NCBI GenBank assembly: GCA_003116995.1 | Contig: BDSL01000017.1 | Coordinates: forward strand, 310,001 to 374,000 | Direction: 5' to 3' | DNA: 64,000 nucleotides | From: Yamagishiella unicocca | Taxonomy: Eukaryota; Chlorophyta; Chlorophyceae; Chlamydomonadales; Volvocaceae | Shown here: positions 246 to 64,000 of the stretch, one piece after another | Layout: each line of letters begins with the position of its first letter | Position numbering within the stretch: the stretch's first letter is position 1 | Position numbers and translations under genes: made by a program | The notes under the pieces: model-generated | The model's input: only the letters and a program-made list of their open reading frames with translations | Databases searched by the model: none | Told to the model about the DNA's origin: nothing

Positions 246-3200
246 ATGGATGGCATGTCGCTCCGCGCGGCTTGCATCGCAGCCCCATCCGCAGCAGCAG
301 CGGTCGATCCGGGCAGTATGTCAGCCGCTCGGGTGCCACAAGATGTCCTGGCTGTTGTCTTCTGCCATATCAGCATGAGCGTCCGCGACCGCGGCGCCGC
401 CCGCCTCGTGTGCCGTCATTGGCGCTCGGCGGTGGATGGCCTCACCGTCCGCCGGCTAGCGCTGCGGAGCCCTGGCCCTGGCAACTGCGCTCTTCTTCTG
501 CCTCGGCGCTTTCCCCTCCTTCAGGTTCTGTCCCTGGGCAGCGCCGTCACGTCCAGCCGCGCCGCGTTCGCATCGGCGCTTGCCGCTCTGCCGATGCTCG
601 GCCAGCTCTCGCGGCTTTCCCTGGAGTTCGCCTCACCCGCGGCCGTCCGCCTTCCCTCCTCCCTGCACGCGCTCAGCCGCCTGCAAGCGCTGTCGGTGTC
701 AATCAATGCCGTACAGCAGGGGCAGGGGCAGGCTGGGGCCGGGGCCGGAGCGGCCGTCAGCGCCACTGGCGGCGGCGATGGTGGTGGTGGTGGCGGTGCA
801 GCAGGCGACTACGATGAAGGCATTGCGCCCACCAGAGGCTACCATGGTTCCGGAGCCAGGTCCGTGGCGGCCAATGGCCGAGGGCTGTATGCGCCCGTAG
901 CTGCCGACGACGGCGGCGGCGGCGGCTGGGGTAGCGGCGGCGTGAGCAGCGCCAGCTCAGCGGCGGCGGCGGCGCTGCGCATTCCGCCGTCGGGCCTGGT
1001 GCCTCTTCTTGCCGTACTCAGCCAGCTGACCTCCCTGGAGCTCGTCCACCTGGCTGCGTCCGTGCCAGACGTCCTGGCCGCCGTACGGGCGGCGTCTCGG
1101 TCGGCTGCTGCCGTACATGCGGCGGCTGTGAAGGGCGGCGGAGGTGGCGGAGGTGGCGGAGGTGGCGGCGGCGACGGTGAAGATGGCGGCGTTGGGCTGC
1201 GGAGGCTGGTGCTGGTTGGCAGCGGCATTAACCTGACCGGGGTGGGCGAGCCAGCGGCGGTGGCACAGCTGGCCCGCCTGGAGGTGCGGGGTGCCGTAGG
1301 CGGGGTGGGTGGATGGAAGGACGTTTGAGCGGAAACCCGTAGGTGGGGTGGGGGGTGGGTAGTGGGGGGGTATGGGGTGAGAGAAGTTGGGATTGGTCGG
1401 TTGGATGTGGTGGTGTAGGCAACTGCGACGGCGACGGCAACTGCACGGGCTGGCAATGACAGGGGTACTTGGCGGTGGCGGAGGCCGAGTGGGAGGTGGA
1501 CCGCGCATATAGGCGGCAACACCAGGGCACAAAGGAGAGGGTATTACATCTACGGGGTAGCCGACCGGGGTGCTGGCTGTCACGTTGCTGGGTGACGTGT
1601 CGTCGACTCAACCCAGTGGCTGCTGTACGGGCCGTACGCGGCGCCATAGGGCCCACGTGCACGTGTGTTGGGGCCGGGAGGCGGGCCATGCGGGTTTCCC
1701 TCCAAGGTGGGGCAGGTAGGGGGGGAGCGGCGGCACCGGCGCCGGCACCGGCACAGGCACCGGGGCACAGGCAGGGGTGATGAGGGGTTTCGAGGAAGAC
1801 CCGTGGATGCGAGAAAACCCGTGATGAAGGGGGGAGGCAGAGAGCAGCGGGGTCGGTGTGCCTAAGTTGGGCGGGGGTGGCAGGGGGGCCGGGCAGCCCG
1901 CGTCTCGGACGTTTCCCCATTCCCCGCAGTACAAAACCCTTGGTTACCCCTCCCCCGGTTTGACTGCCCCCCCTTTTTCCGGCACAGACTCTCTCTGTGG
2001 ACAGCTGCACGGGGGCTGATGCTCTGGTGCCGTTGCTGCCGCACTTGACGAGGCTGCGGGTGGGTCCAGGGAGGGGGGAGGCTGCGGGTGGGTCCAGGGA
2101 GGGGGGAGGCTGTGGGTGGGTCCAGGGAGGGGCCGAGGCTGCAGGTGGGTCCAGGGAGGGGGGGAGGCCGCAGGTGGGTCCAGGGAGGGGGGAGGGAGAG
2201 GCAGGTGGCGCAGCAGCGCGTGTCTGCCACATGGTAACTGAAGTGAGGGACTGAAGGCCCCGGCAGCGGGGGGGTTGGGGTTCCGGGGGGAAGGGGAAGA
2301 CGGACACACAGCCCACATGCCCATGCCGGGTCTGTACGGGACCCTGGATTGCTGTATGGATGGGGTGGGGTGGGAGGGGGAGAGAAGCCTGCTGTGTGGG
2401 TGGGGAGGGGTATGAGAGGAAACCCGGGGGTCGGGAAACCTGTGTTTGTGTGTGTGGGGGGGGGGCGCCGCCAGAAGAATGTGCTGTGTGTTGGGGTAAG
2501 GGCGGAAGAAGCTTTCTGCGTGAGGCAACCCTGTTGGCACTGGCTCAGGCGGCCTTGAGCGTCCTTAAGCAGGAGGAGCTTCTCTTGAGGAGCACGTGCT
2601 AAAGGATACTATATAGATTTCAATTTCAATTCAACCCTTAAAAGTCAAAGTTGAACTCTCAGTTTAAGGTTTGTGCGGGCGGATTAATTGGTAGATTCGC
2701 CACTTTCCCCATGTCACTCCCGCTGCATCGCCGCTGGCCCCCTGCTTCTGTCTGCTCAGCGTTCAATCGATTTGCCAACATGATAAGACCTGAGAAACCC
2801 CCCATCGACGCCGGCAACCCTCTTGCCGCTCCAGAGGCTGACGCTGGACGGTATGGACTACGCCTGGGCTGCCGCCGCCGGCTACCACCGGCGAGCCGGG
2901 TTCGACAGCAGCAACGACCTGCAGCAGCACGCCAACCACCACAACCACCAGCAAAACCAAAACCAGAACCTCCACGCGGGCAACGATAATGCGCAACCGC
3001 ACAACGGCCACGACAACCACCACCAGCACGCCGGCAACGGCGCTCTTGCGAACCTCTTTGAGATCCGCGGCGGCGGCGGTGGTGGCGGGTGGCTAGGCGG
3101 CGGGGCCGCCGCCGCCGCCGCCCTGGCGGCGGCGGCTTCCGGCCGACCCCTTGCTTTCCTGCTGTGCCTGTCGCAGCTGTCTTCCCTCAGTCTATCTGGG

Positions 3201-6200
3201 TCCTTCCTGCGGACGTTGCCTAATCGGGACATCGGCGGCCTGACGGCCCTCTCGGCCCTGGACCTGTCCGGCAACGGAATCGACGACTTGCCGCACGGTG
3301 GGGCTAGAGGGCTAGAGGGGTGGTGAGGAAACCTGCTAACACGACATGGGAGAACGAGGAGGAAACTAAAACACATGGCCTTCTCGTCACCCCCCCCCCG
3401 GTCCTCGTGTCCGCCGACCATGCGCCCATTATCCTGTCTTTTTCGTGTCAACGGTTTTCATGCCACCCCCCGGCCGCGAACTCTCTCCCGCCGCTCCCTT
3501 GCTCGCTACCGCCCCCCCCCCAATCCATGCCTTTATGCCGATTCCGAACCCATGTCGTGTAACCGGGTATTTATGCTCTCCCCCCCTCCCCACAGGCCTT
3601 GCCTCGCTGCCGCTGCTTTCCCGACTGGATGTATCTCAGAACGAGCTGGTGGCGCTGCCGGCCTGGCTGGCCGGGATGCAGGCGAGTCCGCTGGGGCCCG
3701 GGGCCGCATACCGCGTGTAGATCAGAAGCTGAAGGGGATAGGAGATAAAGGAGGCGCACGACACGTGTGTTTTCAGTACCTGACACGAAGACTTGACTCA
3801 ACAACTTGCTTTTGGAAAGCGATTGTTCAAGAGATCGATCCTGCAATATGTGATGGGGTTACGGGTACCCAAATGGATTTTGGTTTTCCTGGAACCAAAA
3901 CCAACCGTGGTTGTCCCCGGACAGTTGCATTTGTGGCCTTGTTTTGCACATTAGGGTTTTGTGGGGGTCGGCCCTCCACCTGTCTACTCCCGGCGCCTCC
4001 CCCCCTCCCCCCCCCGGGCCTCTTCACACCCTGCGTCCATCAAAACCCATACCCCCCTCCCCCTCCCACCCGCCCCCCCGCAGTCGCTCGAGTCGCTGTC
4101 CTGCCACCACAACTGCATTGAGCGCTTCCCCTCGCTGCTGTACGACCTGACCCGTCTGTCGTCTCTTGCCATCGGGCACAACCGAATCAGCTGGTGGTGA
4201 GGCGGCGGGGCGGGGGGGCAGGAGCAGGGGCAGGGGCAGGGGCAGGGCGGGGAGCGCGGGGGGTGGAGAGTTTTAGGGTTTCGTAACATGACTCGAGCAA
4301 TGGAAAAGCGTAGTGTGGCAAGGAAGATGTGGGGGTAAAAATATATCCGCGAATCCACGGCCGACAGACCAAGGGCGAAGATGTGGGGGTCGTGGGTGGG
4401 CGGGGGAGTCGGTCAGTGGAGGTTTTGGCGGCGGGGCACACTTGGGTTGCAACAAACCGACTTTGGGTTTGGGGGTTTGGGTTTTAGGTTTTGGGTTTTG
4501 GGATTTAGGGTTCTCAACGACCCAGCAGCTAGCTAGAAGGAAATCCCCTCCCCTTCCCTTCCCTCTCCCTGCAGGCCAGTCGAGTGCGCCCTCCCCCGCC
4601 ACCGCCGACCCATGGCCATCGACGCCGACCGCGCCGCCGCCGCCGCCGATGCCACCGCCGCCGCCGCCGCCGCCGCCGCCCCTTCCAGCACCATCAGCAC
4701 CACCTCCAGCTGCACCGCCTCCGTCTCCACTCCCTCGTCGCCGCCGCTGCCGATTTCCTTTCTGGACCTCTCCCACAATCGGCTGTTTGGTCTGCCGGGG
4801 GGGCTGGCGGCGCTGGTTGCACTGCGCTGCCTGCGGCTGCGAGACAGCTTGGCGGGGCTTGACAGCAGCGGCACCGCTCGGGCCATGGCGCTGCTGGCGG
4901 GCCTGACTGCGCTGAGGGAGGTGGGTGCGGGGGTTAAGGGAGGAACCCGGGGGAGGGAGGGTGCGGGCAACGGGCATAAAGACCTGGCTACACGGCATGG
5001 GTAGATTAGCTGGCGCATTGGCCCCCTCACCCCCTTCCACCCCCCAGGGGTTTTTGAGGAAGACCCGTGGGGCAGGGGGTGAGGCAAGGGGGTGATGGCA
5101 AGGGGGTGATGGCAAGGGGGTGAGGGGAAGGGGGTAAGGGGAAGGGGGTAGCACTGGCACTGGCGGCGGCGATGTGAGGATGCTGGTGCCAGCCCCTCCA
5201 TGCCAACCAACCCCTTTCCCACTCACGTTCTGCGCCTCCTCCTCCTCCTCATCCCCTGCCCTCCCCCCCCCGAACCGGGTTTCCCTGCCCCCCCCCTCCC
5301 CTACAGCACATTCGTTTGTTTCCTTTAGTTCCTTTAAACGGCCGCCGACGGGCCACATTCACAGGCTTCACAATAGTCAGTCCAAGTGCTCCAGCAGCGC
5401 CCGCAAGCCGCAACCATTTGTCCGAACACTTGTGCGCCAGCTGCGCTACCCATGTCGTACGTGTGACTGGGTCCTTACGGCGGCCCCCCCCCCATCCCCA
5501 ACCCAGTTCTCCAGCATGCATGTAAAAACGTCTATTCTAAACGGTTTTTTGGGACATCCACGGGTCTCCCTCGAACCCCCCCATCCGCAAAATCTATGCG
5601 CCAACTGTACTTCCCGCGTCGCGTAAACGGTCTTTATTCGCGCCCCCCCCTCGACAGTTGGACTTGTCCTCCAACCACCTGGACCAGCACTGCATCGTGC
5701 CACTGTCAGAGCTACGAGGGCTGCGGCAGCTGTGGCTGGCAGACAACGGCCTGGAGGTGCGGCAGCGGGCGGCGGGGGGGTTAGGAGTTGGGAGTTGGGA
5801 GGTCCTTGGCTGGGGTATTTGGGTGATGGGGTCGGGAAGAGCGTGGGGTAGGCTGGCCAGCCGAGCGGAGGTTGGAGAAAAAAAGGTCAGGGACCAGACC
5901 AGAGGAGGCGGTCCAGGGAGGGCGGGACGCGGCTCTCGTTGCCTGCCTTGGCGTCGGTTGCCTGTCGGTTGCTCTCTACAGTTGAACAGAATGCGTTTGT
6001 ACCGCCGGTTTCTCGCGAGTACCTGCACAACTTGGAAAGCACGTGTGCGTCTTGACCCACTTCACGGTAGTACACGGAAGGTTGCTAGCGTGTCCGTCAG
6101 TTCGTTCCTTCGTTAGTTAGTTACTTGGTTAGTTAGTTGCTGTGGGTGGTGTGTGGGGCTCTCACCGCCACCTCCTCAAACCGCTGTTGCCCCCCCTATG

Positions 6201-9068
6201 CCTATTTCCTCTGTGTCACACCCTGCCGCCCACCAAAACGTTTCACTAGAGCGCTAGGGGACCGTGTTGACGTTCGTCTAGGCGTAGCAGCTGGAGGCGA
6301 CACGCGACCTCCGGATGTTACTCCCTAAATCAAGTCCTCCATCATGCAACTCCAGACGAGTGGACCAAACTTTTCCTGAACTGTTTTACTTTTCAGTGCC
6401 GACCCACGGGTCTCCTCTCACACCCAGCCGCCGCCTCCGCCGCCTCCGCCGCCGCCGCCGCCACAGGAACTCCCACTGGGTCTGGCGCACCTGAGCTGCC
6501 TCACGCTGCTCAGCCTCAGAGCCAACCGATTCATCGAGGTGCGTCGTGCGTGCCACGACGGGGCTGACGGGTGCAGGCATGACGGTGGTTTGGAACGGTT
6601 GGGAACGGTTGGGACGGTTGGCGCACTTTGACAGGGGGCAGAGGTCGGCAGGTCGCCGGCTCCCAATGCAGCCAGATTGTTCCCACAGCGACCCTGCCCC
6701 ATCCAACAGCTCCTACTCTCCCAGCATGTATTTCCAAGCATGTGTGGACCAAAAGTTTAATAATCGGTTCTACTTTTCAGTGCCAAAACACGGGTTTCCT
6801 CTCATACCCCTCTCCCTACCTTCACCCACGGCTTCCCCCCTGCTCCTATGTTGTCGGTTCATCAGTTCGCTCTCAGGCCCCTTCTCCCCCCCTCCCGGCG
6901 CGCACCCCCCCCCCATCTCCCCCCATCTCCCCTCCTCGCTCCCCCCCACTAGCTCCCCGTGTGTCTCCGTTGGCTGTCAGCCCTGGAGGCCCTGGACCTC
7001 TCCTGCAACCGCCTGGCCGAGCTGCCTCCATGGATCGGCGGCTTCAGCGCCCAAACCCAAATCCAGCCCCCTTCCTCACCCGCCCACGAACCCCACCACA
7101 ACCACCACCACCACTCCCACCACCTGCACCCCGCGGGCCCCAACCCGGGACCCCACCAGCCCGCTCCCCTCCCCCATCAGCAGCAGCAGCAGCACGGCCT
7201 GCTGGGCCTTGTGGGGCTGCGGCACCTGGACGTGTCGCAGCAGTACTCGGTGGTGGTCCGGGAGAGCTCCGTACCGCACATACCGCCGCGCCTGGTGAGT
7301 GGGTTTCGGAGCACAGGTTTCGGAGCACGGGTTTCGGAGCGTGGACTTCGGAGCGTGGGTTCCGGAGCGTGGGTTTCGGAGCAGGGGTTTTCGGAGCACG
7401 GGTTTCGGAGCACGGGCTTCGGAGCACGAGCTTCGGAGCATGGGAGCGCGGGCTTCGGAGCGCAGGTTTCGGAGAGTGGGTTCCGGAGAGTGGGTTCCAG
7501 AGAGTGGGTTTCGGAGCGGCCGCAGGTTCAGTTCGGCTACGTGTCCCCCCACGCCCGGCCTTGAACCCGCTCTGCAAAAACCGTGATAGTAAAAACTCTC
7601 CCCCCCTTCCCCTCCCCCTCCCCCATCCAACCCTTTATAACCCCTCCCTTCTCCCCCCTTCCCCCTCCCGTTCTTCCCCTCCCCCGGCTGCTGCAGGAGG
7701 TCCAGCCGCCGCATTGCCTGTACGGGCCGCTGCAGGTGACCACGCGCCGCAGAGCGGCGTCCCGTTTAGGCTACTTACTTCGGTTTCGGAGGAATGGGCG
7801 CCCTGGGCCGCCGAACGTGCGATTGAGGCCGGGTGGCACCCTCTTGCTTGATTTTCGCGCGTGGTTCGTTCCTCTTGCACCGCTGCTGCGGACTTCCGGT
7901 CCGGGGGGAATCAAGCCGGCGGGGGCGGGAGTTACGGGAGGTGGCGATACACACACGTCCGAGCCGCGGCGTCCCTCCTTACATATGTAAGGTGCCCCCG
8001 GCGCGCGCGCCCAACCGCCACAACCGTCTAACCGCACGTGTCGTACCCTTCGTACCTTGCCGTACGCCTAACCGCCAGGGCGACCTGCCTGACGAGCTGC
8101 TGCGGCTGCCTCACTTGCGCACTCTGGTGCTGCAGCGACACATGCTGCGGGCGGGGTCGTCGGTGCTGCGCCGGCTGCAGGTGCGCTCCAGGGGGGTGGT
8201 GCTCCGGGGGGGTGGGGGAGGGGGGGGGCAGAAAAGAACCGGTAACTCGACATGGGGCGCTCCAGGGGGGGGGGGTATAGCGTAACGACCCGGTTACACG
8301 ACCCAATTGCGCTCCGGGATGTGTGTGTGGCATAAGAACCGGTTACACGGCATGGATAGGAGAGCGGAGGGGGGCAGGGTGAGAGCGCGATAAGGGGGGT
8401 TCGGAGGTGACGGCTGCCGGTGCGCTCCAGGGGGGAGGGGGAGAGCGTGGTAAGGGGGAGTCGGAGATGGCTGCTGCAGGTGTGCTCACCGGGGGGGGGT
8501 AGCGCGGAGACCGGGGGGTGAAGGGGAGCGGGAGGGGAGGGGTAAGCGAGGAGACCCTGAAACACGGCATTGGCGACACCGGGATCAACCGCCGGGATGG
8601 GCATGGCAGCGCTAGTGTAAGGTGACGTGGCGCTGTACGATTCTGCACGATACTGTACGGCATTTGACCCCAAGATGCACGCCAGCCTGTGGCTTCGCTA
8701 AGGGGTACCGTAGGGCGGCTCCCGGCCACTCCGCTTTCCGTCGAGCACGCGAGACTCCAACACCGCAAAACACACACGCCCGCGCCACCGTTTCCATGCA
8801 CCCCGCCTGTACCGCAACACACACACACACACACACAACACACACACACACGAACTCTCAACCCCCAGGCTCGTGGCGTGGACATCGTACACCCCCGACC
8901 GCTGAAGGTGGAGTCCCTGCCCGGCGCCGCCGCCGCCGCCTTCACCACCGCCGCCGCCGCCGGCGGGCTGCTCTTCCCCGCCCGCCATCCGGAGCTCCGA
9001 GGTGCTGCCGCCGCCGCCGCCGCCGCCGCCGTCGCCGGTTTCCACGGCGGCTCATTCCGCGGCGGCAG

Positions 9069-9100
<32 letters not shown>

Positions 9101-12900: not shown

Positions 12901-13087
12901 TCGCTAGCAGAGCCGAGTAACAGCTGCAGCAACCTCCAGTCGCGGACCCAGCAGCCGGCTGGGGTACGTGACGCTGCACCCTCGAGCTCTGCCGCGCGAC
13001 CTGACCGGCCGCCAAGCGAACCGACACCAGATAAGAGGCAATGGCCTAAATTGAGGAGTTTAGAGTCCTCAAGAAAAAGACGGGTCG
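9969..13087. other. Intergenic region without a convincing gene
   Basis: Only short, compositionally driven ORFs occur. From about 10350 to 10620 there is a purine-rich imperfect tandem repeat (GGAGAGGAGGGAGGGGGAAG) carrying CCCGTGG-type module A cores. A GGCA microsatellite is near 11590. A 25-bp duplication built on TTCGGTCGGGAGTCAGGATA is at 12546-12595. No TGTAA signal was found close behind the F-box stop. Confidence 0.6.
9970..10097 (+). repeat. Tandem repeat directly after the F-box stop codon
   Basis: Four to five copies of a 20-bp unit (CAGAGCCAGTAACTGATAA) start two bases after the stop at 9966-9968, so they lie in the 3' UTR or immediately downstream. Confidence 0.8.
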
Positions 13088-14325: not shown

Positions 14326-14365
14326 TTCAATTATGTAAAAGTCTCTTTGCTCTTATGCCAGGTCC

Positions 14366-17396: not shown

Positions 17397-20295
17397 ATGA
17401 ATCGGCCACGTATGCCCGCTCGTTTGCCTCCTCCCCTTCTTTCGCCCCTGGGCCATGGTCCGGTACATAAAAGTGCGCACATACAACCGACCAGCGCCGA
17501 CCGCACAGTGGAATCGCCTTCGCAGGCCTACAGCCCACACCATGAAGCACAACATAAGCACCACCTTTCAATTTCGGAGGCGCAAACCCCGACTGCCTCA
17601 CTCTCCCTTCCCGACATCTCTCCATTCCGCCTTTCCTCCTTGGCCCGCCTTGTGTCCGCCCGGGCCCCAGGTGGCGGAGGCGAGCCAGACGGCGCCACCA
17701 CCGCCCTATCCGCGGCCATGCTCCTCAACTTTGCCATCTTGGCACATGAGGGGGGTCATCTGGTAGCGGCGAGGGCGCTGGGCGTGTCGGTGCGGGAGTT
17801 CTCTGTTGGCGTGGGCCCACGGGTCGCTTGGTGGCAGGTGAGCGGGTCGGGTCGGGCTTCGCGGCTTAAGAGGTGAATAAAGCTAACACACAAGATAGCA
17901 GGCTGGTTAATTACACATTTTCGTGAGTTCCATGGTGTAGCGGTAAAATTACTCGCACCGTACGGCAAGTAAGGCAAGTAAGGCAAGCGGGCAACCAGCG
18001 CTCCCGCCGCCCGCCCAATCCGGCCATCTCTCGCAAAGTCGATCCGCGTCATCAGCTGCCGCTGCCGTGTCTCCTGCAAGTCCTCCGTTCGTCCGCCCAT
18101 CACTCCTCATCACCTCGTGCAGCGATCGAACTCGTAAGTGCTTCTCCCTTCCTCCCTCCCTCCCTCATAGCCGCCAATAATGAGTTATGTGTCGACACAC
18201 GGATCTCCTCTGACATCACTCTGAACCCTCTCAGCCGGTCTCCTCAGCTCGCCAACTTTCGCCCTACCACAAAGACTGTAACATACACACAACGACTCTC
18301 CATCCCCGCCGGGCCCCCCCCCCGCACTATCCTGTCCTTTTCACGCCAACGGTTTTTGTACCGACCCCGCGCACACACCGCCACCCCCCGCGCACCCCGC
18401 ACTGTCTATCCACCCTCCCTATCCATCCAGGGCGCCACCACCACCTACTCGCTGCGCGCGCTGCCGCTCTTCGGCTACATCAGATTCCTCACAGCCACGC
18501 ACCTCAACACAGCCGCCGCCGCCGCCGCGTCAGCCGCCGCAGCCACCGCAGCCGTGTCAGCCCCAAGCGCCGCCGCCGCAGCCGCCCTCAGCAGGGGCCT
18601 GCTGCCCGTCCTGCGGCTGCGCAGGACCCCTCCCGCCGCCGCCCCCTCCCCGCCGGTTCTGCTGCTGGAGTGGCTGCCCCCGGGACGTCGCGCGCTGGTG
18701 ATGGCGGCGGGGGTGGCCGTCAACGCACTGCTGGCGGCGGCGTTCGTGGCCTGGCAGGTGTGTCGTGTCGTACCGTACGGCACGCAACTAACGCTCCGCA
18801 GCCCCTGGGCAGCTGGGGAGCAACCGAACACGTGTTGATGGGTTTCGCTTGGGGCGATTGCGATTTTTACGACGGGCGTTGTAAGGGAAACCCGTGTAGG
18901 AAGCAAGGAAATACCGTTTAGGACAGACGTCCGGAAGGGGGTGGGTTTCGAGGAAGACCCGTGGATGCGAGAAAAATCGCTTAGGACAGACGTTTTGAGG
19001 GGGCGGGGGGAGGGCGGGGGCAGCAGGCGGGTGCCCCGCCACAGCGCCAGCTGATGCCCATTCATCACGACAGGAGGCAAAACGGCACCTTCGCATAACA
19101 CACCACACCACCACCCGCGCCCTTTTCTACACGCACACCGCGCCCTCGCGCCCATTCAACCCACCCCGGTCCACCCAGGTCCTGTCGTACGGCGAAATGG
19201 GCCTCGTCGTACACCCGGGCGCACGGGTTGTCGCCGTGGGCGGCTGGGAGGGGGGAGACGAGGAGCCGCAGCCGCCGCCTGATCAGCGGCTGCATGCGGG
19301 TGATGTGGTGCTGGGTGTGGGTCGCTGGAGGCTGCCGGCGGGCGGGCAGGTGGTGAGCTGATGGGGGGGGGGGCGTCGGCGCGGTGCAGGGAGTAGACCG
19401 CGGAGTGGACCGCGCGTGCGTGTGTTTGGGGGGGGGGTGGAGAGGGGGCACCCAGTGTGTGTGTGTTTCGAGCTGTGCCACTCGTGCCTCTGGCGCCGGC
19501 CTGGCGGAAGGGCTGGAGAGGGGGGAGGAGAGGGACCCGGCGGCGGCGTAAGGCCTGGCGGTGGCATTGGCGGAGGAGGTGGCGGCGGCGTGGGGCTCGG
19601 CGGCGCTTGTGGCGGCGTCGGCTCCGGGGTGGGCGGCGTCGGCTGCACTGGCGGCGGCGGCGCTGGCGGCCACCGCCGCATGCCCCTCAGCCACCAGCCC
19701 CGAGTCCGACGCGTCCTCATGTGAAACACGTCCTCGGCCTGACGTAGTAGGGCCATGAGCAGGGGAGGGCCATGAGCAGGGGAGGGCCATGAGCAGGGGA
19801 GGGCCATGAGCAAGGGAGGGCCATGAGCAGGGAGGGCCATGAGCAGGGAGGGCCATGAGCAGGGGAGGGCCATGAGCAGGGGAGGGCCATGAGCAGGGGG
19901 GGCCATGAGCAGGGGAGGGCCATGAGCAGGGAGGGCCATGAGCAGGGAGGGCCATGAGCAGGGGGGCCATGAGCAGGGGGGCCATGCAGGGGGGCCATGA
20001 GCAGGGGAGGGCCATGAGCAAGGGGGGCCATGAGCAGGGGGGGCCATGCAAAGCAGGGTAAGGCCATGAGCATATCATCCCCATACCGACAGTACGGCAT
20101 CCGGCTGACCTGCGTGCTCGTCCAGGCGGCGCCTCCATGACCGCAGCCTCCACCCGCAACACGCTGCATCAACCACGAACCCTAAATACAACCGGCGGCA
20201 TCCCCGCCTCTTCCCTTCGCTCCGTTCCTCGTTTGCTCCCGCCCAGGAGAAGCTCTTCGTGCAGGCCCTCCAAGCCGCCGCCTCAGAGCCTGCCC

Positions 20296-46794: not shown

Positions 46795-46953
46795 CTCGCT
46801 TCCTGTCGTTTCGCCGTAGCCGCTTTAGCTTAGCCGCCAAAGGTCGACATACGACCTTCGGCTTTAGTATCCCTAACCCAGTTCCCCAGCATGCATCTCA
46901 AAACGCCTGTTCTAAACGGTTTTTTCGGGCATCTACGGGTCTCCCGCGAAACC
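46795..46953 (-). repeat. Long copy of module A unit, intergenic
   Basis: The copy has the usual A core plus an upstream flank (TTTAGCTTAGCCGCC ... GTATCC) that is shared with 59204-59361 inside an RRP12 intron. The homologous unit is thus about 158 bp, longer than the short cores elsewhere. Together these two copies suggest the full-length element. Confidence 0.7.
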
Positions 46954-48033
46954 CTCCCTCGAGCGGCGCGGAGTTGGTCAGCCCGGAGGGCAGGGTGCTT
47001 GTTACAGTAGTCCCGTCGGGCCGATGACGAGGGCTGCACCACCGCAGGGCCGCCATATCCTCCCCCTTGCCCGGTAACCTGCCAAACCTTTCGGTTCGTT
47101 GAAGACTATGCACCAGCTAACCTTCCCATGTCGGGTTACCGGTTCTTTTCTGTGACCCCCCTCGCCGCCACCGCACCTCGCAGCTGAGAAGAGGTAGGAG
47201 GACGTCGCAGCTCGCAAGCAGCAGCAATCGCATTGTTGCATTAGTGTGAGCGAGCAGGCAGGCTGGAGGCCGCAGGAGTAGGGGGCGTCCGTCGTGTCCT
47301 TAAAACACAAGCTGACCCCCCGCATTTCCACACTGCCAAGCGACCTGGCAAGGTCCGAACCTGTCCAAAAGCTAATGTTTAACCACCACCACCCAAACAC
47401 ACCGGTTACCGGTTCTTTTATGTTTTACCCCCCACCACCACCACACACACACACAAACACACACACACGCTGCGCATTATCGCACCTTGCTCGCTGAGCA
47501 TCACAACTTCCCCACGCCCCCAAACAGCTGCTCAGCTCGAAGGGCCTCGTGTCCCAGTGAGCACTGTATGATGAGCTCTTCCTTAGACGCTGCGCAACCG
47601 ACTCGGTTGGTCGAGCGCCAACAGCGATCCAGATCCCAACTTCCAACCGAGCGCAGCTGCCCCTCGTGAGGTTGGGGCCTCGCATGGAACACCCCCCTCC
47701 AATGCTGGACGCTGCTGCTGCCGCCAGTGCTGCTGGTGCTAGCACTGGTAATGGTGCCGCCGCTGCTGCTGCTGCTGCTGCTGCGCGAAAACACACAGCA
47801 ACCGCACTCCTCTCGACTCCCCACAGTCCCTGACCCCCGCCCCCTTCGTGCAAGTTCGACACACCATACGAACAAAACACCTCGGGTGGGCCCCCCCACG
47901 CCACCGTCTGCTCCCCGGGAAACAAGTCGTTAACGGTTGACGGTTGACTCTTAAAACGCAGCAACAGCAACGCCACGGCCCCCTCTCCCACCCCCCTTTC
48001 CCTCCTCAGTGCTCGCTAATAGAACCGATCGCT

Positions 48034-51000: not shown

Positions 51001-54000
51001 CCGCGTCCAACAGATCCATCGGGTCGCCGCCGCCGCCGCCGCCGCCAAGTCGTACACCGCCACGGCCCGCCGCCGCCGCCGCCAGGGCCCCGGGCCGCTG
51101 GGGGCCTCCGCGGGTCGATGCCGCAGCTCCTGCGCCCCTGACACTCCTGGATGGGGCCCCGCAACGGAAAACGGAAAACGTAAAACACAAAACACATAAA
51201 CACAAAACACAAAACGCATTCATTGCTGAGAGGCGTAGGACGGCGGGCCAGGAGGACAGGGTCGGAGTCCGGGGTGCAAGACAGGGAAAGTGGCGGGGCT
51301 AGGCGGACGGGGGGGGGGGGGCGACCGGATGGACCCAGGGCGGCGGCCAGCCGCAGCGGATGCAGTGGCCGTATCCTCCCTCCCCGGACCCCTCCCCCCT
51401 CTATGAATGCGATAAAAACCCGAAACCCTTAACCCCCATCCGCCCCCACCATGCCACCCACCCACCTGGCACCCCCGCCAGCCCCTCCTGCCCCTCCAGC
51501 CTCTCCGTCGCTGCCTCCATCCTCCGATGAAAACACGGCGGTGTGGCCCCACTGGGAGGCCCGGGCGGTGCGGCCGCCCTGGGAGCTGGCGCCGCCGCTG
51601 CGGCGGGAGCGGCGGTCGTCATCGCCGGCCTGTGGGTGGGGGGTATTTCAGGGTTTCAGGGTTTAGGGTTTTAGGATTTAGGGTTTCGTTTTCGTTCTGG
51701 GGCTTTCGTTTTTGACGTGTTCAGGCAAGGGCGGGGCGGGTGCGCACCGGTGCGAACGAGGGCCAAGCCACCGAGAAATGGTGGTCTTCCTTTTTCCCCT
51801 AGAGAAAGCGAGCACACACACCCTGGCTCCCTAGCTCGGCCCTCGGGCCCCTCTTCGGAGGCATTCCTGAGGAGGGCATCTCTCAGGCCCCAACAAACCA
51901 ACACGGCCCGAAACGCTCCAGCTTATCCCTGCCTCCGACCCCCCCTCTCCCCCCGAAACCCATCTTTCCCCCTCGCCCCCACCTTGCTGCCCCCCTCGCT
52001 CGCCGCCCCCGCGCTCTTCTTGCGTTGCTTCTTGGTGGTCTCTCGCCGGATGTGCGCGAGCAGCTTCACATCGGACGCGGGCATGGCGGCGGCGACCGCG
52101 TCGAAGCCGCAACGGCGGGCTAGGCGCTCCACGATAACTCGGACCTGCGCGCACGCATGTGTTTTTTTTATGTTTTGTATACTTTGTAAATTAAATTTTG
52201 TATACTTTGTATATTTTGTGTTTTTTTTGTGTGTGGGGGGGGGTATGTTGGTATTCTCGGGGAAACGGGGGGGGGATGGGGAGGGCGATAACCCGCGGGG
52301 GAAGCGGAAGGGAGGGGGCTCCTTTGGAGCGCCCCCCAGAACTGGACGAGCGCACGTCCAAAACGTACGGCATCACACGCATCACGGCGCGTCCATAGCC
52401 GGTGGGCCCTGCTGTCGTACAATGGCTCAGGAAGCCGCCCAGCACAGCCCCGCCGACGACGGTACGATATATGTGCGAATGCGTTGTGCTGTACGGCATG
52501 GCGCCCTCGCGCTCACTCACCTTGAGCTTGAACTTGTTCTTCGAGTCCTCCGCCCACACCAGTGCGCCCTCCAGTATAGTGCCCAGTTGCGGTGTCAGTA
52601 GCTCCACAGGCAGCCGCATGGCGCAGACCTGCACCACCGCTCCAGGGAGGGTTCGAGGGAAACCCGTGGATGTCCCGCTCCAGGGGGGGGGGGTAACAAA
52701 AAGGGGCGGGGGGGCCCGGTAAATCGACCAGGAAGGGGTGGCGAGGAATGCCAACGCGGACGAGTCGGTTGCACGTCGGTGTTGATGACGGTTGTCGATG
52801 ACGACAAAGGTGACGTGGTGGCGGTACGACAGCAGTACGACGACAGCAAGCAAGTCGTTACGTGCAGCCCCCACGCAATCCGTGCTGAGGCCGCTGTGAC
52901 ATGTGCAACGTGTACGACATGTAGGACATGTGCAACGTGTACGACATGTAGGACATGTGCGGTCCTCACCTGACCCACATGGCGTCTCCCTCTGCCCGTA
53001 CCTCCCTACCCCGCCCGTCCTAGCTTCCCCCTCCCTCCCTCCCTCCCTCCCCTTTCCCCTTCCCTCCCCCTCTCTCCCTCTCCCCCCCTCCCTCCCTCCC
53101 TCCCTGTCCCCCCCTCCCTCCCTCCGCCCTCCGTTTCCCATGTCGTGCAGTCGGGTCTCCCCCCCCGCCCCCGCCCCCGCCTCCGCTCCCGCTCTTTGGC
53201 GCACCACTGGAACATCACCTTCACCGCCCTCGGTTTGTCGGCCGTGGATTCGCGGATTCTCTTATCAAACCCCCTGCCCCTGCAGGTCCGCTCCCACCTT
53301 AACAAAGCCCAGCACCGCCTTGATCACCTCCCGCGCCTTGCCCCGCAGCAGCGCCATCACGGGCGGCAGCAGAGCAGCGACCACGTTCTGGAGGGGACGG
53401 GGGGGGGCAGGGGGGAGGCAGGGGGGGTTAGTGGCTACAATTAAAGAACCGGTAACTCGACTGGGGAAATGTAGTTGGTGCAGGGGAGGGAGGGGGGGCA
53501 GGGAGGGGGGGAGGTGGCGACAGCACCAGGAAGCTCTTAAGGATCGAGGGTGAGGGGTGGCCACAGCGGTGGCGGGTCGCCGCAACACCCAGAACCCCAG
53601 TCCCGCCCTCCCCCTCCCGCTCCCCCTCGCACTTAAAACCCTAAACCCCCACGCGCCCGCATGGCCGCTCCAGGGAACTCCCTGCTCCTTCCCCCCCGCA
53701 AAATCCCTAACCCACTTGTCAGAACCCCAACAGAGGACACGTACACAACAAAACACACACACATACATACACACATACATACACACATTCATACACATAC
53801 ACACCCCTCCACACACACACGCTCACCTGCATGGCCGCGGCAAACTCGTATGTGAGGCGAGCTAGCGACATGACTGTAGCCGACACCATGTGGGGGGTGG
53901 TGGCCACCAGCCCGCCCATCACCATGGAGAAGAACTCGTGCAGACCCCCCCGGCCGGCACCCGCCCCCTCCGACTCCTCCATAGCGTCCACCCCCTCGTC

Positions 54001-57000
54001 GTCGCTGCCCGTGATCCGTCCCGGGTCTTGCTCGTCCATCACGTGCGCAAGGCCCACCAGCAGGTCGTACGCGGCGGAGCGAGTCCTGCGAGGGCCGGGG
54101 GGGAGGCGATGGAGGGGAGGGGAGGGGGCGCGAGGGACACGCAGGTCAGTACGGCAGGTACCGGTACGGCAGGTACCGGTACGGCAGGTACTGGTACGGC
54201 AGGCTGATGCGAGAGAGATTGCGGAGATTGGCGAGGCAGAGCAGTAGCAGACCCAGTCCAAATGCGCGCGTGTGCGTGTGTGCGTGTGTGGAAGACTGGG
54301 GCTGAAAGGGCCTTACGCCGCCGCGGGACCCCACTCACTTTTTGTTCGCCTCCTTCGTACACAACACGATGTCCGCGATCAGCGACGCCGCCATCTGCCG
54401 CCGCCGGGCGTGCTGCGCCGCCGCCGCCGCCGCCGGGTCCCCCCCCATGGCGTCCTCCTCCGCCTCGTCGTCGTCCGGCCCCTCGGCTCCCAGCACGTTG
54501 CGCGGCAGCTCCACGCCTGGCTGCTGCAGCGCCACCACGACGGGCCTAATAAGGCGCAGCCGGTAGCGGCGGGCGGCGGAGAGGGTGCTGGCGGCGCTGG
54601 GGCCCAGCAGCTGCGAGTGTAGGCGGGGGGGGAGGGAGGGGGGAGGGAGGGGGGAGGGTGTTTTAAGGTGGGGAGGTGGGTGCGGTGGGTGCGGTGAGGC
54701 TGTGTAAGTTGGTACAGAGTGGGTGGGGGACTGGCGGCCATGCCCGATCATGGTCGCGCAGAAACGCGCAGGGTGGTGCGGGAGCGGGGGACACACACAC
54801 ACGGCTCCAGGGAGGGCCGCCCGGAGGTGCCAGAAGGTGCACCCATAAGGCTAGACTCGGCAGCGCCCCCGGCTCCTCCAACACCAACACAGCCTTCCCC
54901 TCCCCCCCCACACAGCACTGTTCACCGGCGGCTAGTTTCTGACCTCCGTTTCCTATGTCGTGTAACCGGGTCTTCTCGCTACCCTCCATCCATCCTCCAC
55001 CCACCCCCCACCCCCCACCCCCCAGCATGCATCTCAAAACATCTGTTCTAAACGGTTTTTCTCGCATCCACGGGTCTCCCTCGAACCCCCCTCGCAGCCG
55101 CTCTCCTCCCCTTCCGCGGCCGCCCCCCACCTGCTTGAGCACCTCTCCCAGGTTGCTCCGAAGCCAGGGCTCCCTCGCCTCCGCCAGCACCGCCAACACC
55201 TTGAAGGCGCGCTTCTGGACAGAGGGCTGGTCGTGGACCAGGGAGGTCTTGACAGCCTGAGGAGGGAGGTGAAGGCGAGGGGGCCACGGGCGGCAGGGTG
55301 GTGGCAGTTACCGACAACATCCGTAATAAGGAAATTATTATCTTGCGGAGCGGTTGCGGTTGCGGTTGCGGTTGCGGTTGCGGTTGCGGTTGCAGTTGCG
55401 GTTGCGGTCACCATGTCCCACTCCACCAACCCGACCCTCCGATTTAAGCTTCATACTATACCGCACATTACGGTGACTTTTTCATTCCCTTTAAAAGCCC
55501 GCTGACGGGTCACCTCCACGGGTCTCTCAGCAGTCAATCCAAGTGCTCCAGCATGCGCCCACAACTAGGTGTCCGAAGACTATGCGGCAGCTACACTTCC
55601 CATGTCGTGTAACCGGGTCTTCACGCGCCCCCTCCGGGGCCCGCTGCCCCCGCCTGCCCCCCCCCCTTCTCGCCGCCTCCTCCCCCCCCACCACCACTTC
55701 CCATGTCGAGTAACCGGCTGTTTTTGTAACCCCACCACCACCACCACCACCACCACCCGCTGGACCGTCACCTTCACCGCCCTCGGTTTGTCGGCCGTGG
55801 ATTCGCGGATTCTCTTATCAAACCCCCCCCGACCCCCAACCTTTCCCCCCGGCTGCCCCCACCTGCCCCCACCACCACCACCACTTCCCATGCCGAGTAA
55901 CCGGTTTTTTCTGTAACCCCACCACCACCACCCCCAACCCCCCCCCGCACCTTGAATAGCACGTCCACCGCCGCCTCAGGGAGGCCGTAGCTGAGCCACA
56001 GCGCCATCTCCAGGAAGGCGTTGCGGCGGCTGAGCGGGTCCGCACCGCCCTCGGTCACCGGGTCGGGGGGCGGCACCTCGGCGCCCTCGTCCACGATGAT
56101 CTGCCGGGGAGCCGTGGGTGGGATGCATGTGGGTTTTAGGGTTCCTTGAGGGATTGAAGGGTTTTAACATGTTTAAAGTGTCGTGAGGATCGTTGTTCCC
56201 GATTCCCTGCAAACACATCTCCCCCCAACGACCTCTTTGCCGTTCTTCGCGCCCTGCCCCCTCCCCCCCACTAACTATCCTGCCCTTGTCGCGTCAACGT
56301 TTTTTATGCCACCCACCACCCACCAACCACGCCCCCTCACCCCACTTTCCGCCTCCCCCCCCCACCCACACGCACGCACCCACACATACACACATTCACA
56401 CATTCACACACATTCACGCACATACACACACACGCACACGCATTTATAAAACACACGCACACGCACACGCGCGCACCTTTGACAGCTTCTGCAGCGCCGC
56501 CCGGAAGTAGCCGCCCACCACCCCCGCGTCCGTCACCGCCGACATGGCAGCGATGGCGGCCGCATAAGGCCCCCGGCTTTCCGGCTCCGAGCCCAGGTAG
56601 GCCTTACACAGCACCGACAGCCACTGCTTGTTGAACGCCCGGAGCGCCGTCAGCGCCGCCTCCGCCTCCGCGGTGCCGTACCCCGACGGCGCCGCGCCGC
56701 CGTGCGCGGCGGCGGCGGCGGCGTCCTCGGGGCTGGCGGCGGCGGGGCCGTCCTCGTCGTCCTCCTCGCCGCCTTCGGCGGCGCCGCCTCCGCCGCGGCC
56801 GGCTCCGGAGCTAGGCCCGTGGGCGGCTGGGTCGGCGAAGCCGATCACCTCAGAGCCGCGGCCGTCGGCCGCAAGCACGTGTCGTACCTGTACGAGCGTC
56901 GTACAGTTGTCAGATTGGAGACCGCCCCCGCTGTTTTGCAAACCACAAAGTCCACACTAGTAGTCCGCGGTCTGTGCATGGCAGGCCCTCCCTGGTCCCT

Positions 57001-60000
57001 TCTCCCCCCCGCACTATCCCCCGGGCCGCCCCCCGCCCCGGCCCCCCCCCGCCCGCCCCGCCGCGCCGCCCACATGCGTGTCATACACACCCACCCACCC
57101 CACCCGACCCACTCCAAATGTCTGTCGCAAACGGTGTTTTGTCGTACACGACGTGTCTTCCTAGCAACCCCCTCCCCCCCCCCCCCACGCACCTGTGCGC
57201 AAGCTCTCTGGAGCGCATGGCAGATGGCGGGCTGCAGGTCGGGGCGGTTGTTGAAGGCCGCCGCCAGGGTGTTGACGAGCGTGCCGTACGAGGTGGGCAG
57301 GTCGGTGGCCCAGCTGATGAAGGCGGGCAAGCAGTGCCAGATCTGGCAACGGGGGTCAGAGAGAAGAGGGGTTTAAAGAGAATCCGTGAATCCACGAAGA
57401 AGGGGTGGCGAGGAAACCGGTTCATTCGACAGGCATCGTATATCGAGGAGAAGAAACCGAGGAGGGGGGATGGGAGGAAATCCGTTGGTCGTCACTAAGA
57501 GTTGCATGCTGGAGAACTTGGTTTGGGAACCCAGGAAGGGGGCGAGGTGAGAAAGGTAGAGGGGAGGAGGAGGAGGAGGAGCCGGAGGAGAACGAGGAGG
57601 AAGACTTTACAGGAGGAGGAGCATGAAGAGGAGGAGGAGGAGCAGGAGGAGCAGGCATGGAGTGGAGTGGGCGGCGGTGCGGCAGCCCGGTGGGGGGAGA
57701 GAAAGAAGCTCCAGGGAGGGAGGGCTCGAGACAGCGGGGCCCGCAACCTGCCGCATATGTCTTCGCTGACCACGTGACCTCGTGGAGCAGCCTGCCTGCC
57801 TACCTGCAGCTCCAATGTACGGCACTTGAGCGCCAGCGCGGCGGAGGGGGCGCCCCCCGCGGCGGACAGAGCTGCGGCCCGAGCGCCCAGGGACTGCGCC
57901 ACCGGCAGTAGCTCCTGTGTGTGGGGGTTGATAAGAGAATCCGCGAATCCACGGCCGGGGGGGGTTGCATCAAAGAACCGGTAAAGGGGGGGGGGCAGAC
58001 GACCCGGTTACAGGACATAGGGCCCGGGGGAAGGGAGGATGATGCCGTGGCAGCAGCAGGAAGTTGCAGCAGCAGAATCAGGTGTTGGCGAGAAGGGGTT
58101 GGTCGCAAGACGCCCGCTTCCACAGGTTTGCCGGTAGTCCGTCCCAGTGCTCCAGCATGCGCCCACAAAATAGGTGTCCGACGACCATGCGCCAGCCTTC
58201 CCATCCATGTCGCGTAAACGTGGTTTTTATGCCGCACCCCCCCCCCCGGGGTGTCCGAAGGCTATGCACCCACTACATTTCCCCAGTCGCGTTACCGGTT
58301 CTTTTATTGTACCCCCCCCCCCCCGGGAGGGGTTGCGGCTGGCGCCGCTGCTCACCTTGAACCAGAAAGCCAGGTGCGAGTGTCGTACATGGCGGCGCAG
58401 CAGCGGCAGTAGCCAGGTGCGGGGCTCGGCGGTGCCGGATAGGCCCTCCAGGATCTGGAGGGGCAGCACCTGTGTGTATTGGGGGGGAGGGGGGGGCAGA
58501 GGGGGGGAGGGGCAGCGGGGGGGAGGAGGAGGGTTGAGGAGGGGGGCAGTGTGGGTGGCGAAGCGAGGGCGGATAGAGGAAGGGCGGCGAGCAGCCCTGG
58601 CGGTATGTGCCTGGGGGAACCGCAACTTGGGGGCGCGGGAAGTGGGAGTGGAGAGGTAGGGCCAGCTGCAGCAGCAGTGGCAGCAGTAGCGTCACCCCCC
58701 CCACACACATACGTGTGTACGGCCATATGCTTCACCCTGTCGTACAATACACAATCCCCACCTTCAACACCGCCTCAGGGCCCAGGAACCGCAGCGCCGT
58801 CCCAAGGGTCGCCTCCGCCGCGCCCGAGTGCGCCGCCGCCGCCGCCGCCGCCGCCCTCGCGTCGCCGTCGCCGTCGCCGTCGGCCGCCTCCCCCGCCGCG
58901 TCCTCCGCCCCGGACACGATGGCTCCCAGACACTCCACCAGCGGGGCGGCGGCGTCGGCGGCGCCCAGCTCGCCAAGCTTCTCGATGAGCACGCCCACAA
59001 CTGAAAGCGGTTTTTACGGTTGGGTGGTTGGAGGAGGTTGGGAGTTAGGATGCGGGGTGGGCGGACCATTCCCCCGATGGCTAATTCCAACCGATACACC
59101 ACAGAACCGAACAAGATGCAACGCAGGATACTGGACTCGAACCCGAACCCATCACCAAGCCCGTCAACTCCCAGCCCCCTAGGTTTACCCCACCCACCCA
59201 CCCTCGCTCCCTTTCGTCTCGCTGCAGCCGATTTAGCTTAGCCGCCGAAGGTTGACCTACGATCTTAGTCTTCCGTATCCTCACCCCAGTTCTCCAGCAT
59301 GCATCTCAAAACGTCAGTTCTAAACGCTTTTCCTCGCACCCACGGGTCTTCCTCGAAACCCACCCACCCACCCACCCACGCGACCAATCGCCCACTCACC
59401 TGGCAGAGACATGCCCCACGCGTCCTGGTAGCGGGCAGAGAGGCTGGTCGCCACCGCCGCCACCAGAGAGGCCAACGGCGAGGGACCGGCGGGGGAGGAG
59501 GGTGCGGAGGGGCGGGCCGGCTGGCGGGCTGCGGCGATCGTTGCCGGGGTGAGGCAGTCGGAGATGAGGGCACGAAGCGCCTGTGTGTGTATGTGTGTAT
59601 GGGGGGGGGAGGGGAGGGGCGTGTTTATGGTGTCAACGGCAAGCGCGGAAGTCCGATGTGCCAGTTAGGAAGCAACACAGGTAAGCACACCAGCACCAAC
59701 AACACAAGTAACCACACCACGTCCGCAAGTCACCGTTATCACCGTTGTCACCGTTGTCACAGCACCCCACCCCGCCCTGCCCCGGCCAGTTCTCCAGCAT
59801 GCAAATACGAAAATCGACACGTGCCTCGTAACTTTTCCTCGTTGGGCATACTGATTCTCTCAACCACCCGCCAGCAACCAATCAAACGATCAACCAACCC
59901 ACGCCCGGCTACGGACACTTCCGTAATCTCGCGCTGCCGTACGTACCTCAGATGTGCCGTACCGCACGCCGTCCTGCTCCGCCGCCAGCTGCGGCACCAG

Positions 60001-63000
60001 CGCGTGTACGGCGCGCGGCAGCCGTGCTGCGCATGCTGCGGGGTCGGCCTCCGCAAGGCGGGAGAAGCCTCCCTGGAGTCGGAGAGGGGCCGAGAGCGGT
60101 GTTGGGGAAGGTATCAGTAGGGTGGCCGTATATTGGTATCGGCCCAAAGGGCCTTATTTTGGCAAAGAGGGGGGCCTTTGAAAGGGCCTTATTTCGGCCA
60201 TATTGTGGGCCCACGGCCAGCCAGGCTCGGCTCCATGATGACGAGATCGGCGGAGGCCCCTTGATGCTGCCCCGCCTCCTGCTCTGTGTATCTCTCTCAT
60301 CCGAACCACGGGTTTTCTCCCCCCCTCCCGTACCCCCCCCCCCGTAACCCCCCTTCCCCCCCCCATCGGGGGGGACACACTCATACTGCTCCCCCCCCCC
60401 CGGCCCCCAAACATCCACGCACCTCTAGTAGCCGCCCCAGCGCCATCAGCAGCCCCGGGTCCCGGCCGCCGCCCACCCAGAGCGACTCGGTCTCGATAAC
60501 CACCTGCAGGGTGTGGGGGAGGGGTGTGGGGGGGGGTTTACGTAAAAGAACCGGTAACTCGACATGGGAGGTGCAGCTGGTGACAATAGCCCTCGGACAC
60601 CGGGACGCGTGCGCAGTGCTACTGGACTTGAGTCTGTGGGGGGGGGGGTGATAAGAGAATCCGCGAATCCACGGCCGACAAACCGAGGGCGGTGAAGGTG
60701 ACGGCCCTCTGGGGGGGGTGAGGTGGGCACCGTACACGCGACGAGGACAGGATAGTTGGCGCGTGTGTGGGCGGGTGGGTGGGTGAGAGGAAAACCCGTG
60801 TACGAAGGAAAACCGTTTAGGACAGACGTTTCGAGGTGCATTCTGGTCTGGAGAACTTGGTGTGTGAAGGGGGTGGGGGTGAGAGAGGAAAACCCGTAGG
60901 GAGTTATGAGACAATGAGAGGGAAACCCGTAGGGGGAAGGCGCGTCGGCGGTGGCGGCTGCGGACGAGGCATCAGAGGACGCGGTGTACGGCGGGAGGTA
61001 CGGGACGTGAAAGGATGAGGGAGCGGGTGGTTGGGGGGGGGAGAGAGGCGGCAGGCGGTGTGGTTCCGGAGCGGCCCTGCCCCGGCCCCCCCACGCTAAC
61101 GGTACTTACCGTTAGCAGGTTAGACAGATCTGCTGACGTCAGCCGAGTGGTGGCGGCGCCGCCGATGCCGGCGGCGCCGCTGCCCCCCAGCGCCGCCAGT
61201 GCCTCCGTGACGTGGCGGTCCAGCAGCGGCTGCCGTAGGCCGTACAGCTTGAGCAGCAGCTCGGTAGTCGCCTGGTGACGGTTGGTCAAAGGGGGTTGGG
61301 ATGACTAAGCCGCCCTTCCCGGGATGCAAGAGCGGTTGATCGAAGGGGGTTGGGATGGCCAAGCCGCCCTTCCCAGGCTAAAAAGCGGTTGATCCCGGAC
61401 TCAGCCCACGCAGCCCCCCCTTCACAAAACCCATGCCGCATGGGGCCCCCTCCCCCCGCCCTCCACGGGTTTCCCTCGAATCCCCCCGCCCTCCCCCACC
61501 TCGAGCCACCTCCCCCCCCCCACACACACGCACAAACGGGTTTTACTCGTTTCACGGGTTTCCCTTCCCCCCTACAACCCTTCTACTCGCGTCCCCGGGT
61601 CTCCCTCAAAACCCCACAACCCTTGTCGTGTAATCTGGTCTGCTCGCCACCATCCACAGCCCCCCCTGGAGCTGCCACCCTCCCCATCCCCTCCCCACCC
61701 GAGTTCTCCAGCATGCATCTCGAAAAACGTCTGTCCTAAACGGCCTTTCTCGCATCCACGGGTATTCCTCGCAACCCCACCTTTGCGGCCCCCCCACCTT
61801 TGCGGCCCCCCCACCTTTGCGGCCCAACCACCTTTGCGGCCCAACCACCTTTGCGGCCCAACCACCTTTGCGGCCCAACCAGCTACACTCCCCATGTCGA
61901 GGTACCGGTTCCTTTCCGTTCCTCGCAACCCCACCTTGGCGGGCCCCCCAGCTACACTCCCCATGTCGAGCAACCGGTTCCTTTCCGTTCCTCGCAGCCC
62001 CACCTTTGCGGCGGGCGGCGCCAGCAGCGGCAGCACCCCCTTGAGCGCCCCGATGAGGTGCAGCGCGTCCGACACGGCGGTGGTGATGGCCTCCTCGGCG
62101 GCGCTGCGCTGCTTGTTGGTGGCGGCGGCGGCGGCGTGCGCGGCGGCGGCGGGTCCGGGGAGCACCCGCTGGCAGACTGAGGAGGGGGAGGGGGAGGGGG
62201 GGGCATACAAACCGTTTACGCAACAGGGGGGGAGGGTGCGAGGTCCCGGGGGGTTGCAATTAAAGAACCGGTAACGCGACTGTGGAAACGTAGTGGGTGC
62301 ATAGCCTTCTGACATCGGTCCCGGGGGGAGGGTGCGAGGTCCCGAGGGGAGGGTGCAGGGACCGATGCAGAGGTTTGCAAGGTGAGCTCAGCTGCAAGCA
62401 GGGCGTTCGGAGGTGGTCGTGCTTTCGTGATGAACCTATGGGTCGAAGCGGTGCGTTTCGGCGGGGCACCGTTATGTGTGGTGGATGGAAGCCAGTGGCT
62501 TGGGAAGGTAGCACCGACCCACGGGTCACTAGGCTTCACACCAAAGATCAACCCCTTCCTCCAGCCGACTTCCTTCGCACGCCCCCCCCCACCCCAAACC
62601 CCCACCCCCCCACTCCCCCCCCAAACCGCCAAACCCCTACCTCCCCCCCGGCACCCACCCTGGACCACCAGTTCGCTGGCCGCCCCCAGAGCCGGGCTCC
62701 GCTGCAGCCCCGCCAGCAGCTCCACCAAACCACCCACCGCCCGCTTGCGGACCTGCGGGGGGGGGGGTGTGGAAAGAAAACCCGTGTACGAAAGGAGAAC
62801 CGTTTGTAGGATAGACGTTTCGAGATGCGAGGGGGAAGGGGTATTCGGGTGCAGGGGTGAGGTGGGGTGGGGGTTGGAATAGGGCGGAGGGGCGGAGGGG
62901 GCACCTGGCGAAGCGACGTGGGACGAGCCGGGGGCCATGACCGCCCAAAGTTACGGTAACAGCACAGTGCAACCACCTCCGGTAATGGCAACGGCCAACA

Positions 63001-63715: not shown

Positions 63716-64000
63716 CTGCGAGTGTACGGCGAGGGAGGGGGAAAGGAAGGGGGGTGCAAAAATTACCCGGTTACTCGACGTGGGAAGCGTAGCTAGGAAG
63801 TAGGCTTCGGAAGGGGGAGGGGGGAGGGGGAACGGAGGGAGGGGGAGGGAGGAGCGGAGGGGCGTGTGTGTATGGTAAGGTCGCTGAGCCACGGCAGCGG
63901 CCGTGGGTGGAGCGGTGAGCTGGGGTTAGTGGGGCGAGTTCCCTCCGGCAGCCCCCCTGCTACAGCCGCCCATGGCCCATGGCTGTAGCTGCAAGGTTTG
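63716..64000 (-). other. RRP12 intron running off the right edge
   Basis: No further RRP12 exon was found here. A module B copy (63762-63797; ACCCGGTTACTCGACGTGGG) lies near the acceptor of the exon 63715-63551, reverse-complement on the sense strand as elsewhere. Confidence 0.6.

Follow-up and report, generated by a model that had tools for sequence, protein, structure and literature searches.

Three mirrored repeat families in introns of Yamagishiella unicocca are probably the 3′ ends of C-tailed retroposons inserted at G-runs

Several introns in the stretch of Yamagishiella unicocca DNA analysed here (hereafter the window: 64,000 nt, bases 310,001-374,000 of contig C17) carry short repeats of three families, A, B, and C, which tend to read forward near the 5′ splice site and as their reverse complement near the 3′ splice site. 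Does this arrangement amount to a code that pairs the two ends of an intron, or does it follow from the way in which the repeats arrived? As set out below, we consider it quite probable that each family represents the 3′ end of 5′-truncated, C-tailed retroposons that insert at G-runs, and that the compositional skew of the introns yields the mirroring.

The surveyed genome comprises 133 Mb in 1,415 contigs. Counting exact matches on both strands, the 19-base core of family A occurs 1,087 times genome-wide, the 18-base core pattern of B (with one two-way base) 662 times, and the 20-base core of C 775 times; the reversed control patterns have no exact match. Profiles of A, B, and C were built from these three cores, which had been read from the window by the original prediction, and were applied at a threshold of E ≤ 1e-2. 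The search gave 100 copies: 39 in the window (14 A, 18 B, and 7 C), 10 in a contiguous 200-kb tile taken from elsewhere, and 51 at other fetched loci, most of them obtained through an exact A core. With 39 copies in 64 kb vs 10 in 200 kb, the window is unusually copy-rich, and it had been picked for its repeats. These counts omit diverged, sub-threshold copies (e.g., at 3322) and, at 18323, a module of a fourth type. This related fourth module, recognized by eye outside the A, B, and C models at window ~3419-3470, 18324-18369, 46037-46083, and 60715-60760, has the pattern CTATCCTGTCC...CG.GT..ACGGT followed by C's.

Gene models were made with our own ab initio, self-trained exon-chaining gene finder, without RNA support, and are partly wrong, e.g., at ~44-47 kb of the window and at tile position 25060. 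The modelled window genes include a leucine-rich-repeat-like protein (read from the translation), an M50 peptidase, and RRP12, and one modelled chain joins a La-domain gene and a CCDC47-like gene. A longer RRP12 protein query retrieved 15 relatives, one of them from Tetrabaena socialis (79% identity over 11% of the query); a single RRP12 exon used as a protein query found no match. Taken together, the relatives and the base composition hint at a volvocine-like green alga. The window also holds other repeats: a 14-bp tandem repeat (GGTTTCGGAGCACG type) at 7294-7520, in a modelled intron of the leucine-rich-repeat gene; an extended G-rich minisatellite with units of 8/16 bp (GGGGTGCGGGGCTGGG type) at ~42660-44000; and a near-perfect inverted repeat at 49798-49887 / 49923-50012, with 90-nt arms that are 98% complementary and 35 nt apart, perhaps a young fold-back element.

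The copies in the window are given below. All were found by profile search, with duplication scoring in addition where so marked; the strand is that on which the G-run leads into the core, and the RNA sense is the opposite strand.

1791..1826, +, A copy; originally listed as an exception; G-run upstream
3333..3351, +, weak diverged B match near donor; E 0.05, below threshold, uncounted
3549..3572, -, B copy; 24 nt to acceptor
4345..4383, +, C copy; GAAGATGTGGGGG duplicated, 13 bp (duplication scoring)
4978..5015, +, B copy; 57 nt to donor
5436..5476, -, B copy
5509..5573, -, A copy; 85 nt to acceptor
8233..8256, +, B copy; 52 nt to donor
8334..8360, +, B copy
18884..18935, +, A copy
18949..19000, +, A copy
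42402..42464, -, A copy; no gene model there
42601..42617, +, weak short A match; by eye, flanked on each side by a GGGAGACGGGGGC repeat; E 0.023, below threshold, uncounted
44400..44434, +, A copy; no gene model there
45418..45464, +, C copy; originally listed as an exception; G-run upstream
46079..46106, -, B copy
46123..46179, -, A copy
46885..46948, -, A copy; insert ~160 nt, duplication ends GAGGGAGGG (duplication scoring)
47111..47148, -, B copy
52654..52672, +, weak A match; E just <0.01 in a window-only search, outside the 39
53219..53266, -, C copy; 31 nt to donor
53443..53480, +, B copy; 55 nt to acceptor
54942..54974, -, B copy
55021..55083, -, A copy; 47 nt to donor
55587..55621, -, B copy
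55688..55723, -, B copy
55772..55819, -, C copy
55874..55910, -, B copy; 40 nt to donor; flanking repeat in part of low complexity (duplication scoring)
57110..57162, -, A copy; 28 nt to donor
57376..57396, +, C copy; 30 nt to acceptor
57930..57974, +, C copy; 15 nt to acceptor
58268..58304, -, B copy; 51 nt to donor; shares its intron with the C copy at 57930
59293..59355, -, A copy; insert ~152 nt, flanked on each side by a low-complexity GGGTGGGTGGGTGGG repeat (duplication scoring)
60545..60582, +, B copy; 41 nt to acceptor
60650..60697, +, C copy
60787..60846, +, A copy
61707..61771, -, A copy
61878..61914, -, B copy; 32-bp duplication (duplication scoring)
61948..61983, -, B copy; 25-bp duplication up to the modelled RRP12 donor (duplication scoring)
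62262..62299, +, B copy; 27-bp duplication GGGGGGAGGGTGCGAGGTCCCGGGGGG (duplication scoring)
62776..62832, +, A copy; 19 nt to acceptor
63761..63796, +, B copy

Twenty-three places had been listed in the original prediction, nine at 5′ ends, 12 at 3′ ends, and two as exceptions. Model matches (E ≤ 0.01) lie within 70 nt of 20 of them, or of 19 if 46025, whose match is ~55 nt away, is dropped; the models missed the other three, namely 3322 (E 0.05), 42598 (E 0.023), and 18323 (no match). The exceptions at 1784 and 45415 are genuine copies, and each has a G-run too.

The mirrored placement of the three families is real. Of the 75 copies that lie in modelled introns of 80-800 nt, 68 conform to the claimed pattern, standing forward when in the 5′ half and reversed when in the 3′ half (coin-flip P ~1e-13), and the rule is followed by 29/32 copies in the window, 5/5 in the 200-kb tile, and 34/38 at the other loci. 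The 25 copies outside this count are intergenic or lack a gene model (15), exonic (1), or located in modelled introns outside 80-800 nt (9). The further observation that copies adjoin G-runs was borne out as well: over the 25 nt that precede the core, G exceeds C in 97 of 100 copies, a run of at least four G is found in 82, and a run of at least four C in three. Genome-wide, exact A copies on the reverse strand have GGGG within 16 nt upstream in 416/555 cases and CCCC in 5/555; forward-strand A counts were left unused because overlapping starts were counted repeatedly, and in the rows listed the reverse-strand places appear once each. A G-run directly before the core is the simpler rule and fits the copies better than one based on intron ends.

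Throughout the window and the tile, the first half of introns is G-rich and the second half C-rich. In the 231 modelled introns in which no copy was detected, the GC skew starts at +0.25 over the first tenth and drops to -0.30 over the final one, and their G-runs of four to six or more fit the mirrored pattern in 74-78% of cases even so. Most simply, because an excess of G follows the 5′ splice site and an excess of C precedes the 3′ splice site, copies come to stand forward at the start of introns and reversed at their end, and landing beside G-runs in such polar introns makes a special intron-folding system needless. When insertion points were sampled by flank composition in element-free introns, 78% agreement with the rule was predicted vs the 91% observed (nominally significant, P 0.004), and the excess remained in the same sense with one copy per intron (P 0.036). 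A conditional null drawn from the element-bearing introns themselves, outside the copies, gave 85% expected vs 91% observed (P 0.11); with one copy per intron, 52/59 agreed (P 0.34). The skew is thus adequate to account for the orientation under the conditional null.

Are the copies insertions? At 18 of 98 copies, flanking direct repeats of 12-32 bp reach a score of at least 8, vs 0.8 expected from mismatched flanks, and they enclose inserts of 37-306 nt, one repeat adjoining the G-run side and its partner lying past the element; 80 of the 98 show no duplication at this score. Over all copies, the scores differ from those of mismatched flanks with P 3e-13. One locus, L035, has a 36-bp duplication that in our reading spans the end of an exon together with its GTGAGG donor, both of which two insertions in succession repeat there. 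Duplications of 15 bp each are found at L043 and L038, and one of 23 bp at L007 (tile position 25060), where the exon is one that we take to be from a putative cysteinyl-tRNA synthetase. According to the gene models, a splice site is reached by three of the 18 clear duplications (L035, L043, and window 61948); by eye, it is also reached by that at L007 and by the 36-bp one at L035.

The two ends of the copies differ. The G-run end is complete in 57/62 A, 27/28 B, and 7/10 C matches, and the distal end in 27/62, 18/28, and 6/10, respectively; completeness of the G-run end is favoured in these figures because many A copies were fetched through a core near that end. Copies range from ~40 nt to ~1.9 kb, the longest read being the A copy in L060. 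Long A copies have the G-run end in common and, outside the short contigs described below, differ in their start points, and an alignment of nine long copies revealed no second common end. Ten copies are 95-100% identical to the long A copy of L060, a near-identity which, judged from sequence, suggests recent activity. In the same comparison, 15 of 42 rows share one start (query 1021), are 99-100% identical, and are all on short contigs; these rows do not represent scattered truncation, and perhaps one copy has been multiplied. The piece concerned, 380 bp of long A on 15 short contigs (C1037, C546, C310, and twelve others), may stem from an array or from a repeat region left unplaced. Separately, four exact B matches at C4:801830-801952, with a spacing of 35 bp, form a B-derived tandem array.

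Read in the RNA sense, i.e., the reverse complement of the orientation called forward above, well-preserved copies end in terminal A's (...CGAAA in A, ...GTAA in B, and ...TCAAA in C) followed by a C-run. Insertion would most likely proceed by target-primed reverse transcription, in which a nicked target strand with a G-run at its end would anneal to the 3′-terminal C's of the RNA, priming cDNA synthesis. Such synthesis would often stop early, giving 5′ truncation, and repair would leave the 12-36 bp duplication.

Non-LTR retrotransposons (LINEs) have a shared 3′ end, variable 5′ truncation, and target duplications of variable length. The A, B, and C families resemble LINEs and their SINEs in these respects and in having many dispersed copies: their duplications vary in length (18/98 copies), and a constant 3′ end is combined with scattered 5′ truncation, the short contigs being the exception. 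They differ in having a C tail and a G-run target, and no linked reverse transcriptase or endonuclease was found. A Pfam search of 14 ORF translations from L059, L060, L061, and upstream DNA, a part of the ORFs listed, found no reverse transcriptase, the sole match being a sub-threshold phage fibre. A search with RVT_1 gave 610 candidates, of which 150 were scored and listed; 81 of these were compared with 87 of the 125 long-A rows listed, repeats and short-contig rows being excluded. Among the matches listed, ~6 kb separates the nearest RVT_1 place from a long A copy; four of the places are upstream of such a copy on the same strand, at a distance of 6-10 kb (on C99, C133, C129, and C10). As for an origin from a tRNA or an Rfam family, L050 contained no tRNA and 701 of its bases had no Rfam match. 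Nor did the 3′ end of A show a conserved RNA fold: three weak pairs were seen over 26 copies, none changed on both sides.

Short retroposons are also known from Chlamydomonas, where SINEX-1 to SINEX-6 have LINE tails and 3′ repeats of (ATT)n, (CTTT)n, and (A)n (PMC3747384). Both groups are short green-algal retroposons; the tail of A, B, and C is C, and it is by the 3′ repeats given in the consulted part of that paper alone that the two are set apart. No C-tailed, G-run-associated element of this kind appears in a title among the literature matches listed, which were open-licence papers.

Several observations count against the retroposon reading: the 80 copies lacking a duplication at the score used, the start shared on short contigs, the want of a reverse transcriptase in the sequences searched, the excess over the element-free null, the higher number of copies per G-run in introns than in intergenic DNA, and the absence of a conserved fold at the 3′ end of A. 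It also has to be weighed against four others. That the families are chance similarities of G-rich, low-complexity sequence is invited by a window full of G- and C-rich repeats and has next to no chance of being correct, as the copy counts refute it: the cores are not low-complexity, and each has 662-1,087 exact matches vs 0 for the reversed controls. It is very unlikely that these introns were created by the three families acting as introners or DNA transposons (MITEs). Introners share with them mobility and a tie to introns, and the copies are dispersed, short, near-identical, and often intronic. However, introners make whole introns, some families with 3-9 bp duplications and/or inverted ends (PMC9860276), whereas A, B, and C sit inside introns and do not form whole introns with splice sites. 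Copies that obey the orientation rule are 8-282 nt away from whichever modelled splice site is nearer, within longer introns that sometimes hold three copies. Their duplications, where found, are 12-36 bp rather than the 3-9 bp that the consulted part of the source gives for DNA-type introners, and the nine aligned long copies lack a common second end. The proposal that inverted copies pair the ends of an intron, and thereby aid exon definition or splicing, seems extremely improbable to us. The mirrored orientation (68/75) speaks for such a functional code, but most modelled introns have no copy (231 vs 59 with one) and some copies lie outside gene models. The statement that several introns carry copies at both ends proved weaker than worded: both ends are occupied in 2/58 window introns (Fisher P 0.66) and 0/144 tile introns, which is the chance level, sub-threshold copies such as that at 3322 being uncounted. 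Folding was carried out on introns of 150-600 nt, 17 with copies and a sample of 36 element-free ones. Copy-bearing introns formed 27.7 end-to-end pairs vs 16.9 in whole-intron shuffles and 33.1 in shuffles keeping the composition of each third; element-free introns formed 19.3 vs 14.4 and 21.7, respectively. The suggested folding check is therefore passed against whole-intron shuffles but not against those keeping third composition, and since there is no excess over the latter, end pairing is attributable to G/C polarity. Two results lean towards pairing. Measured against the third-keeping control, copy-bearing introns are slightly more stable than those without copies (mean z -0.65 vs 0.06, P 0.049), and intron 57915-58355 folds better than its controls (z -2.6 to -3.4, ~7 more end pairs), whereas intron 3298-3595 has a z of -2.1 and yet nine fewer end pairs. 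With co-occurrence at chance and end pairs no higher than composition-keeping shuffles allow, pairing of intron ends for exon definition is not supported.

A closer competitor, which we nevertheless regard as unlikely, is targeting to splice sites or transcribed intron ends beyond a preference for G-runs, e.g., through R-loops or a splicing-linked factor. It would be consistent with the clear duplications that touch a splice site (3/18, and by eye those at L007 and the 36-bp one at L035), with the excess over the element-free null (P 0.004), and with the number of copies per G-run in the window and tile, which is higher in introns (43 per 1,530) than in intergenic DNA (6 per 851), exons having none per 670; the tile alone, with seven intronic vs three intergenic copies, is too small to judge whether G-runs alone suffice. 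Against it, the excess loses its significance once the conditional null is used, and the median distances to splice sites are 44 and 51 nt observed vs 49 and 43 nt under a G-run-only null, with no significant difference (KS P 0.22 and 0.18). Moreover, the strand used with respect to transcription differs between the two ends of an intron, contrary to what single-strandedness coupled to transcription would lead one to expect. Of the alternative idea of intron-end-specific insertion, then, the insertion part stands, but the target looks like the G-run, which is mostly found at intron ends. We also think it improbable that there is a real intron-end preference beyond G-runs and that duplications copying exon ends and donors seed splice sites, mini-exons, and introns, which would make C-tailed, G-run-primed retrotransposition a route to intron remodelling.

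On the retroposon reading, what looks like a designed code can be produced by a mere preference for a target, since landing at G-runs in polar introns is enough to give mirror-image intron ends. The ~2,500 exact core matches would represent insertions by which introns grow longer and splice sites are at times duplicated. Long introns are described as a feature of related volvocine genomes (PMC8226300), and the present alga would appear to belong with them.
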